A stretch of DNA of 34,340 bases from Candidatus Poribacteria bacterium (GTDB lineage Bacteria; Poribacteria; WGA-4E; WGA-3G): the NCBI GenBank assembly GCA_009843785.1, contig VYCT01000043.1:1-34340 (forward strand), in the 5' to 3' direction. The notes beneath the pieces were generated by a model, which did no database searches, was not told the origin of the DNA, and was given only the letters and a program-made list of their open reading frames with translations. Positions within the stretch are counted from its first letter, which is position 1. The number at the start of each line of letters is the position of its first letter. Of the stretch, positions 1 to 3,261 are shown one piece after another. Both the position numbers and the translations under genes were made by a program.

Positions 1-73
1 AAGGGTTTAACGCACTTTTTAACAACTTTTTGCAAGTCCAAAACGACTAATTCCGGTTTGGAATACCGCGCCC

Positions 74-283
74 GTGCCGAGACCGCTCTGTGTCCGTCGC
101 CGCCACTGCCGCGTGTGTGTTCCGGATGTGAGAGTCCCTGATTGTGAGGTCGCACCGTTACCGCGTGCGTGTGAACCGCTGAAACGTCGGCAAAAGTTGT
201 CTCTTGAAGCTGTTGCGATAGATCCACTTCAGAGCGTCTCGCGGGTGTCCACTTTAGACATCATGCGGGCGATCGGTCGATAA
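74..283 (+). CDS. Possible small Cys/Arg-rich ORF, unrecognised
   Basis: This is an open frame of 69 codons from a GTG. The frame is open from position 23, after a TAA at 20-22, so the true start is unclear and no ribosome binding site is visible. The product is rich in Arg, Cys and Pro at its N-terminus. The last 30 residues look more like ordinary protein. Its TAA (281-283) directly abuts the ribosome binding site of the selenoprotein gene, which would fit translational coupling. I do not recognise a family, and the ORF may be spurious. Bases 1-73 show nothing else that I can support. Confidence 0.2.
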   Translation: MPRPLCVRRRHCRVCVPDVRVPDCEVAPLPRACEPLKRRQKLSLEAVAIDPLQSVSRVSTLDIMRAIGR

Positions 284-296
284 TGGAGGTCTCCCG

Positions 297-578
297 ATGT
301 TTGTGATCCGTTTATCGTCAGTCCTGTTGTTGCTCGCCATCGTGCTTTTTATAGGTTGCGGTGAGCCGCCCCAGGAGATAAAGTTAGCGGTCGCTGGTAT
401 GGATTGAGGCGGTTGTGCCGAAGAGGTGCGGTCCGCACTCGGTAAAGTTTCAGGTGAATTGGAGATCGTCTCGGTTTCTATCCCTGATAGAAGGGTCGTT
501 GTGAAAAGTAACGTTAAAAGTTCGGTGCTGATCTCTGCTTTAGCGACAGTGGGTTTTGGTGCTGAAGTCGTCAAATAA
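297..578 (+). CDS. Putative selenoprotein: HMA/MerP-fold lipoprotein with in-frame TGA (Sec37)
   Basis: Read through the TGA at 405-407, this frame gives 93 residues. The start ATG has a strong GGAGG (285-289) seven bases upstream. Residues 1-21 form a hydrophobic signal ending in an FIGC lipobox-like site, so the protein is probably a lipoprotein. Residues 27-93 show the beta-alpha-beta-beta-alpha-beta pattern of heavy-metal-associated (HMA) domains. The family's metal loop is GMxCxxC. Here it reads G-M-D-TGA-G-G-C, so the TGA falls exactly on the first metal-binding Cys and the second is Cys40. A SECIS-like hairpin starts 9 bases after the TGA. The frame after TGA continues 56 codons with intact HMA character to TAA (576-578). 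I therefore infer selenocysteine at residue 37. Likely role: binding a soft metal such as mercury or copper, or a thiol/selenol redox role, at the membrane surface. The alternatives are a pseudogene with one nonsense mutation or a sequencing error (Cys TGC/TGT to TGA). No selA, selB, selC or selD gene is in the window. Confidence 0.72.
416..444 (+). promoter_or_regulatory. Bacterial SECIS-like hairpin after the TGA
   Basis: Bases 416-421 pair with 439-444 (six pairs including one G-U). The 5' side then has a 4-base bulge (AGAG, 422-425). The upper stem GTGCG (426-430) pairs with CGCAC (434-438), closing a GTC loop at 431-433. If the last G-C pair opens, the loop reads GGTCC. This resembles the GGU-containing apical loop of the E. 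coli fdhF SECIS, which SelB binds. The loop G at 431 is 24 bases after the TGA, in the range usual for bacterial SECIS elements. The pairing was worked out by hand. Confidence 0.62.
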
Positions 579-625: not shown

Positions 626-1423
626 ATGTTTTTACGAAAATACTGGATACCGATCTCGGTGTTCATCGTGGCAATCGCAGGCGTAGGTCTTTACCTGCTC
701 GCGACGCAGCCACCGAAAGACCAGATTCTGATTATCAAACCCGTTGAACCTCTGCCGAAGCCTCCAGTCGCGGAAGCACCTGTTGGTGATACCTCGCAAG
801 GTGAAAACGTCCATGCAGACGGCACATGGCATGCCGAGCCGCATGATAAGTCACAGCCTCCAACGAAGGTTGAAATGCGGGGAAACCCCCACCCCAGTGA
901 CGTATTTGTGAAAGAAGCACCTGAGATCCGTTATAACGGGAAACTGTTCCATGAACTCACTCCCAAAGAAAGAGCGAAAATATGGGAAAAGGCGTACCGA
1001 GAAAACGTTAAGGATGCTCCGCCACCTCCTGGGTATCTAAAAGCGGCAGAGGCAGAATTTCAACGCATTCTAAGATCTCTTGATGAACCGCAAGTGGAAA
1101 TAACTTTTGTAACCGGTTTTGCTCCGAACCGAGTGCAACTTTCGACATACCTCGACTTACAAGCAAAATTACGCGTTGCTGAGAGTACAGGTGCGACACT
1201 TGAAGCCAACACACTGCGCGCTGAAATTGAATCTCTGCAAGCCGCGGCGCGAGGTAAAGTCCCTCTGGTCACCGGTTCCTATCAGAGTGAAAAAGGCAAA
1301 CGCAAAATACGTCAGGCGATGAAGGAGAAAGAAGAACAGGCGTATAGAGACTTAGGGCTTGGACACATGGTGGAAGCCGATATCAGCGGACTGACGCAGG
1401 TCCGACCCACTCGTCCCCACTAA
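626..1423 (+). CDS. Membrane-anchored hypothetical protein with His-rich linker
   Basis: 265 residues from the ATG at 626, which is preceded by AAGGAG (613-618). A GTG at 602 is in frame but has no such site. Residues about 6-25 form one transmembrane helix after a short basic N-terminus, so the bulk is probably outside the membrane. Residues 30-80 are Pro-rich and hold a His cluster (HADGTWHAEPH). The rest is charged and probably helical, with an E/R/A-rich segment. I do not recognise a catalytic family. It lies 47 bp after the HMA selenoprotein gene and 18 bp before a Cys-rich secreted protein gene, all in one direction with good ribosome binding sites, so the three are probably one transcript. 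A role in metal handling at the cell surface is only an inference from the His cluster and these neighbours. Confidence 0.7.
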   Translation: MFLRKYWIPISVFIVAIAGVGLYLLATQPPKDQILIIKPVEPLPKPPVAEAPVGDTSQGENVHADGTWHAEPHDKSQPPTKVEMRGNPHPSDVFVKEAPEIRYNGKLFHELTPKERAKIWEKAYRENVKDAPPPPGYLKAAEAEFQRILRSLDEPQVEITFVTGFAPNRVQLSTYLDLQAKLRVAESTGATLEANTLRAEIESLQAAARGKVPLVTGSYQSEKGKRKIRQAMKEKEEQAYRDLGLGHMVEADISGLTQVRPTRPH

Positions 1424-1441
1424 ATGACAAGGAGTTTATTT

Positions 1442-2734
1442 ATGTTTTCCAAAAAGATTCTTTTCTTGATTTGCTGTCTTTTGTTTCTGTGTCTTCCAAG
1501 TTTTTTATTTGCAGGCGACCTCGTCGGCGACGCAGGTCTCACCTGCAACACAGGCCCCACAGGGGTGTGTGATACTTCTGACTATACGTGGTATGAAACT
1601 TTAGACTTAAGCAGTGGTGTAATCTCGGGGTACTGGTCCCCATCCCAACCTGGTAATGTGTCGGTCGGTTTCGAGGCAACTGCTACAGGATATGGGTATA
1701 TCAAAGCATCCTTGTCATATACCGTTGGTAGTGTCTCCGGTTCTTTAAATCTAAGAGCCGAAGCCGGTTACTATGGCGTTGCCTTCTTTGTCCCCTTCAC
1801 TGTTCCTGCAATAAATAAATCTGTCGGTGCAACGGGTGTTGTTGGTTCAATCGGTAGCCATTTCGGTCGCTACGATTGGGATGTTGAAGGCACAGCCTAT
1901 GTTCAAGCAGTCTATTGGAAACCAGAGGCAGGTTTCCCTGTTCAAGGAGGCGAATTCGAGGACTATGGCGATGCAAACGATAAGGATGTTACAGGAAGTG
2001 GATCTTTTAAAGTCTCTTCGAAAAAAGTCTGTCCAAAGTGTGGATTGACAGACATCTCATATTTTTCCGAACACAAATACATGAGTTGTTCTGCCTCCAT
2101 TACCCAAAATGGTAGTACCGTGTATTGTAGTGCTGGTAGCGACGTGTGGAAATGTCAGGATCATACTCACGTATTTGATTCGTCAGGTTCTGGTAGTAGT
2201 GGTAGCACGCCGCCGAGTGGGGGTAGCACACCGCCATCAGGAGGTGGTAGCACCCCACCACAGTCGACCGACAACACGCCGAATTGTCAGGATTGCACGT
2301 CAGATTGTAGTTCACCGTGTAGCTGCACCAACTCGGGAACGTGTGGTGGGACGGTAACGGACAACACGCCCAATTGTTCAGGTTGCACAAGTCATTGTTC
2401 CTCGCCGTGTAGTTGTTCGGATTCTGGAACGTGTAATGGGACCGTGGCAGCCCCGCCACCCTCACCGCCTGAGCCGACACTGGTTGCGTGTGAGCGTGGT
2501 CGTGGTTGTACGGTTCGGAGTTCCAATGGCAGACAGTGCTATGTGGATCCGTCTCGTTCGGCGTGTGGTCATGGCTACTGGTCTTGCAATTCGTCAGCGG
2601 TCTCTTGGCACGTGACCTCTCACCCCTGCACGCGTTCGGGGTGTGGTGCGAGTTATACCAACTGCTCGAGAGGCAATGGCACGTGTCGTGCCCCTCATCC
2701 TAAGGGCGGAACTTACCAGTGGCATGGTAATTAG
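1442..2734 (+). CDS. Secreted Cys-rich repeat protein, function unknown
   Basis: 430 residues. The ATG at 1442 has AAGGAG at 1429-1434. A hydrophobic signal peptide (residues 1-24) ends at FLFAG. Residues 25-180 are Gly/Ser/Tyr-rich and look beta-structured. Around residues 190-245 there are paired cysteines (CPKC, then scattered Cys and an HTH triplet) like a zinc-binding module. A Gly/Ser/Thr/Pro linker with SGGSTPPSGG-type repeats follows. Two tandem 30-residue Cys repeats (residues 277-336) come next, then a Pro-rich hinge and a final Cys-rich domain to residue 430. The many cysteines in an exported protein suggest disulfides or metal binding. No family is recognised. It sits between the His-rich membrane protein and a GspC/PilP-like gene that starts 2 bases after its stop. 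Confidence 0.75.
   Translation: MFSKKILFLICCLLFLCLPSFLFAGDLVGDAGLTCNTGPTGVCDTSDYTWYETLDLSSGVISGYWSPSQPGNVSVGFEATATGYGYIKASLSYTVGSVSGSLNLRAEAGYYGVAFFVPFTVPAINKSVGATGVVGSIGSHFGRYDWDVEGTAYVQAVYWKPEAGFPVQGGEFEDYGDANDKDVTGSGSFKVSSKKVCPKCGLTDISYFSEHKYMSCSASITQNGSTVYCSAGSDVWKCQDHTHVFDSSGSGSSGSTPPSGGSTPPSGGGSTPPQSTDNTPNCQDCTSDCSSPCSCTNSGTCGGTVTDNTPNCSGCTSHCSSPCSCSDSGTCNGTVAAPPPSPPEPTLVACERGRGCTVRSSNGRQCYVDPSRSACGHGYWSCNSSAVSWHVTSHPCTRSGCGASYTNCSRGNGTCRAPHPKGGTYQWHGN
2270..2449 (+). repeat. Two tandem 90-bp units coding 30-residue Cys repeats
   Basis: Unit 1 is 2270-2359 and unit 2 is 2360-2449. Both begin with codons for DNTPNC and share the spacing of seven cysteines (CxxC, CSSPCSC, GTC). DNA identity is high but not complete, so the duplication is not very recent. 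Confidence 0.85.
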
Positions 2735-2736
2735 CC

Positions 2737-3261
2737 GTGTGTTTCACGCTGAACCCTATCCACCGACGCGCCGGTGGTCTTTGGATCGCTGGCGCGTTCG
2801 TCTTACTGCTGATTGTTGTTGTGGTGCGTCTGCTGTCGTCCGCGCCTGTGAGACATGCCCCTGAACCCGTCAAGGAGAGAACATCACCCTCACACCGACG
2901 CGATCAGCAGACCCCACCTCCAGTCTTTGATACCGAAACCTACTATCGCACCATCATCGACAATAACCTGTTCCGTCCGCTGGGGTGGACACCGCCGCGC
3001 CCGGTGGAACCCTATCGCTTACTTGGCACAATCCTGCCCACCGACGAGAAAATACCACCCCAGGCGATTATCCAGGTTTCCACTGCCGGAAATAAGACGC
3101 ACATCGTCAGCATCGGTGATACCCTTGACGCGGACACCAAGATCGTTGACATCCAACCCAAGCAGGTCGTCCTTGACAGGACGGGACAACAAACCACTCT
3201 GAAGTTAGATACATCTCCGTGGATAAGCACTTCCAAAGGACGCTTCTCACGCCGAAGATGA
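2737..3261 (+). CDS. GspC/PilP-like inner membrane secretion or pilus protein
   Basis: 174 residues from a GTG two bases after the upstream stop. No clear ribosome binding site is seen, so translation may be coupled. One transmembrane helix lies at residues about 14-32. After a Pro/Ser/Thr linker, residues about 65-160 show the pattern of the GspC homology region or PilP: NNLFRPLGW, YRLLGTI, a GD turn after IVSIGD, then KQVVLDR and a final alternating hydrophobic strand. Such proteins link the inner-membrane platform to the outer-membrane secretin in type II secretion or type IV pili. A pseudopilin and a prepilin peptidase lie about 9.5 kb away on the same strand. No secretin or ATPase is in the window, so which machine it serves is open. 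Confidence 0.6.
   Translation: MCFTLNPIHRRAGGLWIAGAFVLLLIVVVVRLLSSAPVRHAPEPVKERTSPSHRRDQQTPPPVFDTETYYRTIIDNNLFRPLGWTPPRPVEPYRLLGTILPTDEKIPPQAIIQVSTAGNKTHIVSIGDTLDADTKIVDIQPKQVVLDRTGQQTTLKLDTSPWISTSKGRFSRRR

Follow-up and report, generated by a model that had tools for sequence, protein, structure and literature searches.

A Predicted Selenocysteine-Containing HMA-Fold Lipoprotein and Its Relatives in Candidatus Poribacteria

A Predicted Lipoprotein Gene with an In-Frame TGA

The window, by which we mean the whole 34,340-nucleotide stretch of DNA analyzed here, is contig 287 of a 6.17-Mb, 97% complete genome of Candidatus Poribacteria, a sponge-associated bacterium. Near its start lies a short gene with one in-frame TGA, followed by the genes of a cassette (Table 1). 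Translated with TGA as selenocysteine (Sec, U), its product begins MFVIRLSSVLLLLAIVLFIGCGEPPQEIKLAVAGMDUGGCAEEVRSALGK and ends in AEVVK before the stop codon. The loop itself reads GMD-U-GG-C, so that Sec occupies the first ligand position and Cys the second. With U read as C, residues 30-83 match the Pfam HMA family (PF00403) with an E value of 8.5e-8 and a score of 32.9 bits, above the gathering cut-off of 24.8 bits.

The earlier note on this DNA had proposed that the TGA stands exactly where the first Cys of a GMxCxxC loop is expected, that the HMA domain continues on both sides of it, that a mixed Sec/Cys motif results, and that a ribosome binding site and a lipobox-like signal precede it. 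All of this was borne out: the only in-frame TGA encodes residue 37, the PF00403 match spans it, the motif is UxxC (U-G-G-C), a GGAGG lies upstream of the ATG, and Cys21 is present in 28 of 28 aligned relatives. The signal ends in LFIGC in the window protein and in LLIGC or VVAC in relatives; its Phe at -3 is not the residue most often seen at that site. We predict an envelope lipoprotein, which would be lipidated.

Table 1. Features at the beginning of the window, with positions numbered from its first nucleotide
Feature	Position	Strand	Remarks
Gene 0, small secreted Cys-containing ORF	10..283	+	Cut by contig start; apparent frameshift near 110-120
Ribosome binding site GGAGG	285..289	+	From sequence, 5' of ATG
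Predicted Sec-HMA lipoprotein gene	297..578	+	93 residues, ends at TAA; residue 37 read as Sec
Signal peptide, lipobox-like ...LFIGC	297..359	+	From sequence; Cys21 (357-359) invariant in 28 relatives
TGA, predicted Sec codon (U37)	405..407	+	Replaces the first Cys of CxxC in the HMA loop
Cys40, predicted second metal-loop ligand (UxxC)	414..416	+	Invariant in all aligned relatives
Putative bSECIS hairpin	424..440	+	GTGC 426-429, loop GGTCC 430-434, GCAC 435-438
Gene 2, membrane-anchored protein	626..1423	+	No Pfam or NCBIfam match
Gene 3, secreted, variable, Cys-rich protein	1442..2734	+	No Pfam match
Gene 4, type II secretion protein C-like	2737..3261	+	T2SSC PF11356; last gene of the cassette

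Selenocysteine Machinery in the Genome

According to the earlier note, absence of selB or selC from the genome would speak against a Sec reading; selA, selB, selC, and selD are all there. The selB gene (C234, 346 bits) is followed 39 nt downstream by a tRNA-Sec with anticodon UCA (78 bits), and selA (C335) and selD (C132) score 601 and 362 bits, respectively. The selD gene (L089, G000:C132:36283-37206) itself encodes a Sec protein: a single TGA lies in frame (CAG-U-ASK), and ~11 nt beyond it a hairpin begins. This gene serves as an internal positive control.

Of 83 genomes across the class, 74 have a tRNA-Sec and 70 a selA that exceeds the respective cut-off. Several genomes with a gap in one or the other carry selB above cut-off, which makes incomplete assembly the apparent cause of the gaps. 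One family includes two genomes (G001 and G002) with no selA, no above-cut-off selB, and no Sec-HMA genes; G001 yielded no HMA match, and G002 a single one, of the Cys type.

A Conserved Hairpin Downstream of the TGA

The published bSECIS model has a loop of 3-9 nt with a G within the first two positions, an upper stem of 4-16 bp, a spacing of 16-37 nt from the UGA, and a minimum free energy (MFE) of at most -7.5 kcal/mol (PMC13188914, Fig. 2A). The candidate hairpin in the window fits this model, with a loop of GUC (RNAfold) or GGUCC, an upper stem of 4-6 bp, and a loop onset 22-23 nt 3' of the TGA. Its MFE is -12.5 kcal/mol for positions 416-452 and -7.0 for the short hairpin alone, and the stretch 405-460 folds at -20 kcal/mol (z -2.5). 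An Rfam scan of the window and the locus returned no match to a SECIS family.

Since the core pairs of the stem are invariant among Sec copies, we replaced covariation with a synonymous-codon test and a contrast to Cys copies. All 75 unique TGA copies have GTG at codon +7 and GCA at codon +10 counted from the TGA, against a background elsewhere in the same stretches of 21% GTG among Val codons and 13% GCA among Ala codons. The pattern GTGC-N5-GCAC is shared by every unique TGA copy (75/75) and by none of the Poribacterial Cys copies (0/6; Fisher 3e-9); after clustering at 80% identity, the counts are 21/21 Sec versus 0/3 Cys copies (p 5e-4). The Cys side is a small sample, 7 copies in all, 6 of them Poribacterial. 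Within tandem HMA proteins (see below), Sec domains keep GTGCAGGRTGCAC, and the adjoining Cys domains read GTACAGG.., GTTCAGG.., or GTAGAAG.. instead.

Conservation of the TGA Codon and Selection Beyond It

HMA relatives are present in 74 of the 83 class genomes searched, nearly all of them with exactly one in-frame TGA. The codon at the Sec position is TGA in 75 of the 83 unique copies fetched, TGT or TGC in 7, and TAA in 1; the search for homologs with Cys at residue 37 that the earlier note had called for thus found them, and UGA aligns with Cys as in other bacterial selenoproteins. Several genomes of the genus harbor members of a close subfamily that share ~60-80% identity with the window protein; one genome has 7 or 8 copies. 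The same note had warned of a sequencing error, which Cys codons in close relatives would reveal, and of decay after the TGA. Close relatives in independent assemblies retain the TGA, and the wider family retains it in genomes of one to four contigs. For the codons 3' of the TGA, dN/dS between the window copy and its relatives is 0.09-0.29, and the median over 78 pairs is 0.19 (median dS 0.93); this part of the gene is under purifying selection.

The TGA might alternatively be a true stop, leaving a 36-residue lipopeptide and a pseudogene, or a sequencing error. It is consistent with this that TGA serves as an ordinary stop in 6 of the 28 window genes checked, that one paralog has three TGAs (G049:C411), and that one relative has TAA at the Sec codon (G074:C20). 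However, 75 unique TGA copies come from independent assemblies, the synonymous positions of the hairpin are invariant, dN/dS after the TGA is 0.19, and the Sec machinery is complete, leaving this alternative very improbable; conservation of TGA and hairpin together with dN/dS led us to reject both sequencing error and pseudogene. A genetic code in which TGA specifies Trp was also rejected, given the ordinary TGA stops in the window and the complete machinery. Because the codon, the conserved hairpin, the machinery, and purifying selection come together, UGA-405 is almost certainly read as Sec, and selenium would be inserted at residue 37.

Some copies depart from the common pattern. The close relative with TAA at the Sec codon (L065, G074:C20:25968-26249, - strand) has an intact hairpin and remaining frame, and the tRNA-Sec anticodon in its genome is UCA; a mutation or an assembly error is the likeliest explanation. 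The paralog with three in-frame TGAs (L059), two of which fall at Leu positions, is probably a decaying copy. In a Sec-HMA-like ORF of another genome (L134, G010:C129), the Sec site holds TGA, but the hairpin region contains a TAG in frame; this ORF is possibly a pseudogene.

An Optional Member of a Repeated Cassette

The gene order in relatives is gene 0, the Sec-HMA lipoprotein gene, gene 2, gene 3, and a T2SS protein C-like gene. Intact gene 0 copies end just upstream of the HMA gene; tblastn of one of these (L064) matches positions 10-120 and 110-280 of the window in different frames, and the window copy is probably broken or divergent. Gene 2 has a conserved N terminus with a His motif (GGHFHADGTWHAEPH in relatives, GENVHADGTWHAEPH in the window copy) and a hypervariable C terminus. 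Gene 4 scores 26.4 bits against PF11356, just below the 27-bit cut-off, and recurs 3' of gene 3 in relatives.

Gene 2 is present in ~10 copies in the genome, and the HMA gene is known only beside the window copy; it was absent from the other gene-2 regions fetched from this genome. The HMA gene is therefore optional in this repeated cassette of envelope or secretion genes, and the idea of gene 2 as its obligate partner is weakened. The cassettes themselves, ~10 in this genome (window 626-3261 and L122-L131), consist of genes with conserved N termini and hypervariable C termini beside a T2SS protein C-like gene. A mer transport gene was looked for in the cassette without success, and a genome-wide search for MerT gave no match, either here or in the control genomes. 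MerA-like reductases are present in the genome with scores below the family cut-off.

Fold and Relation to Known Families

An AlphaFold model of the window protein (pLDDT 81.6) has the signal helix followed by beta-alpha-beta-beta-alpha-beta, the order of the HMA fold. The nearest solved structure is MerP (1osd; TM 0.85, rmsd 1.5), and a profile search retrieves MerP (1afi, E 6e-14) as well as HMA domains of copper ATPases (ATP7B). Scores against the NCBIfam models CopZ (44 bits, cut-off 85), UxxU_metal_bind (33.5, cut-off 95), and MerP (27.5, cut-off 92.55) all fall below the cut-offs, and the protein thus belongs to none of these families.

Each of these families shares something with the window protein. 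MerP (TIGR02052) has the same fold, a GMxCxxC loop, and is exported; the window protein differs in its score, its lipoprotein signal, and the lack of a detectable mer operon. With no mer transport gene detected in the operon, "MerP-like" should be taken to refer to the fold alone. The earlier note was right that Sec-containing MerP proteins occur in marine surveys: such entries are present in the GOS survey (PMC2398784, Table 2). The CopZ family metallochaperone model (NF047957) gives the best NCBIfam match, which covers the whole HMA domain, but the window protein is exported and contains Sec.

The UxxU_metal_bind family (NF041115, metal-binding (seleno)protein) likewise combines the HMA fold with Sec in the metal loop, and a relative of the paired type (see below) reaches 51.9 bits against it. 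Its motif is UxxU with two Sec (PMC13188914), in contrast to UxxC with one Sec in the window protein, which in addition has a lipoprotein signal and a cassette of its own. The MerT/CopZ fusion selenoprotein (NF045683), which contains a CopZ/HMA part, and the Sec-containing E1-E2 cation ATPase (PMC13188914) are heavy-metal selenoproteins too; these are transporters, whereas the window protein is a stand-alone lipoprotein that scores 14.8 bits against NF045683 (cut-off 375). HMA-fold selenoproteins as such are already known.

Proposed Role

Selenolates capture soft metals, and a site made of one Se and one S ligand, the Sec binding first, would follow this general chemistry. We consider it somewhat probable that the main role of the window protein is soft-metal binding, as an envelope-anchored trap; the fold, the loop, and the His-rich neighbor argue for it together with selenolate chemistry. 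UGA-405 would be decoded as Sec by way of the downstream bSECIS hairpin, SelB, and tRNA-Sec. The Sec37 selenolate, ionized at neutral pH and the first ligand met by the incoming metal, would capture a thiophilic ion, which may be Hg, Cu(I), Cd, or similar, and Cys40 would close a bidentate Se-M-S site. The bound ion might then be kept away from other thiols or handed to a partner, for example the adjoining His-rich membrane protein. All of the evidence comes from sequence, which shows the codon, the hairpin, the machinery, purifying selection, the predicted fold, and the gene order. Metal binding is predicted from fold and motif, and the metal and its transfer are proposals. The His motif in gene 2 counts in favor of a trap; against it count the lack of a detectable adjoining mer transport gene, the scores below the MerP, CopZ, and UxxU_metal_bind cut-offs, and an operon that is not strictly built around the HMA gene, which ~1/10 of the gene-2 cassettes in this genome carry.

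The UxxC pair could equally serve redox chemistry. Sec37 and Cys40 would then pass through a selenenylsulfide cycle in which disulfides or peroxides are reduced, and the HMA fold would be a mere scaffold. Most bacterial selenoproteins are thiol oxidoreductases, many of them with UxxC (PMC2398784), and some relatives, proteins ending in a Sec-HMA domain with CxxCH (haem-type) motifs and WD40-like repeats, hint at electron transfer. The fold is nevertheless HMA and not thioredoxin-like, the GMxCxxC metal loop is kept, and the operon neighbor is His-rich, so that we regard a redox role as rather unlikely. Storage or delivery of selenium, in the manner of animal selenoprotein P and with tandem forms as concentrated stores, would fit the multicopy genes and the tandem proteins with three or four Sec, but every Sec lies inside a UxxC metal loop that is intact, proteins with a single domain are the most frequent form, and a store has no need of the fold, which makes this the more doubtful of the two.

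Pairs, Tandems, and Fusions of Sec-HMA Domains

The genome of the window encodes two other Sec-HMA lipoproteins side by side (C209), an arrangement seen repeatedly in the order. Tandem HMA proteins combine four Sec and one Cys domains (L086:7356-8576, G074 contig 30), three Sec and two Cys domains (L087:9319-10515, G027), or three Sec and one Cys domains (L088:5167-6165, G026), the Cys domain or domains always coming last. Each TGA in them has its own hairpin, and the hairpins of the Cys domains are broken. These are apparent poly-Sec bacterial proteins, and the match table suggests a similar make-up in two further genomes (G046 and G069). In four proteins of ~460-570 residues (L072, L074, L075, and L079), the C-terminal Sec-HMA domain follows an N-terminal CxxCH (haem-type) motif, WD40-like repeats, or both, the repeats being judged by eye.

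A 2026 review puts the number of prokaryotic selenoprotein families or subfamilies at 119, of which the great majority contain a single Sec and a small minority two or three; it mentions neither Poribacteria nor sponges (PMC13188914). In the open-licence literature, our search for Poribacterial selenoproteins or selenocysteine found no paper beyond two passing mentions. On balance, we favor the view that the window gene belongs to an unreported, order-wide radiation of Poribacterial Sec-HMA proteins, in which tandems with three or four Sec, each with its own SECIS, stand beside Cys domains with broken hairpins, and which would form a selenium-based system for handling metals in the envelope, with chains whose Sec content exceeds the one to three listed for prokaryotic families.

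Because conventional gene calling treats UGA as a stop and cuts these genes there, a sizeable share of the sponge-symbiont selenoproteome is probably absent from annotation. The tandem proteins also offer a clean natural experiment, with Sec and Cys domains adjoining in one protein and the hairpin kept only with UGA. Since otherwise similar Sec and Cys HMA domains share one chain, the contribution of Sec to a metal site becomes directly testable. They also pose the question of how a bacterium decodes as many as four UGA codons of one mRNA in series.

Two further copies are of note. One of the paired HMA lipoproteins (L041:1030-1191, G059:C111) has an in-frame loss of exactly the metal loop, TGMTUGACTS, either a real deletion or an assembly artefact. 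A genome from another family of the class (G006) contains a Sec-HMA lipoprotein-like ORF (L111) with the loop GMR-U-TGC and a different downstream hairpin, which suggests that the trait either reaches past the order or had two origins.
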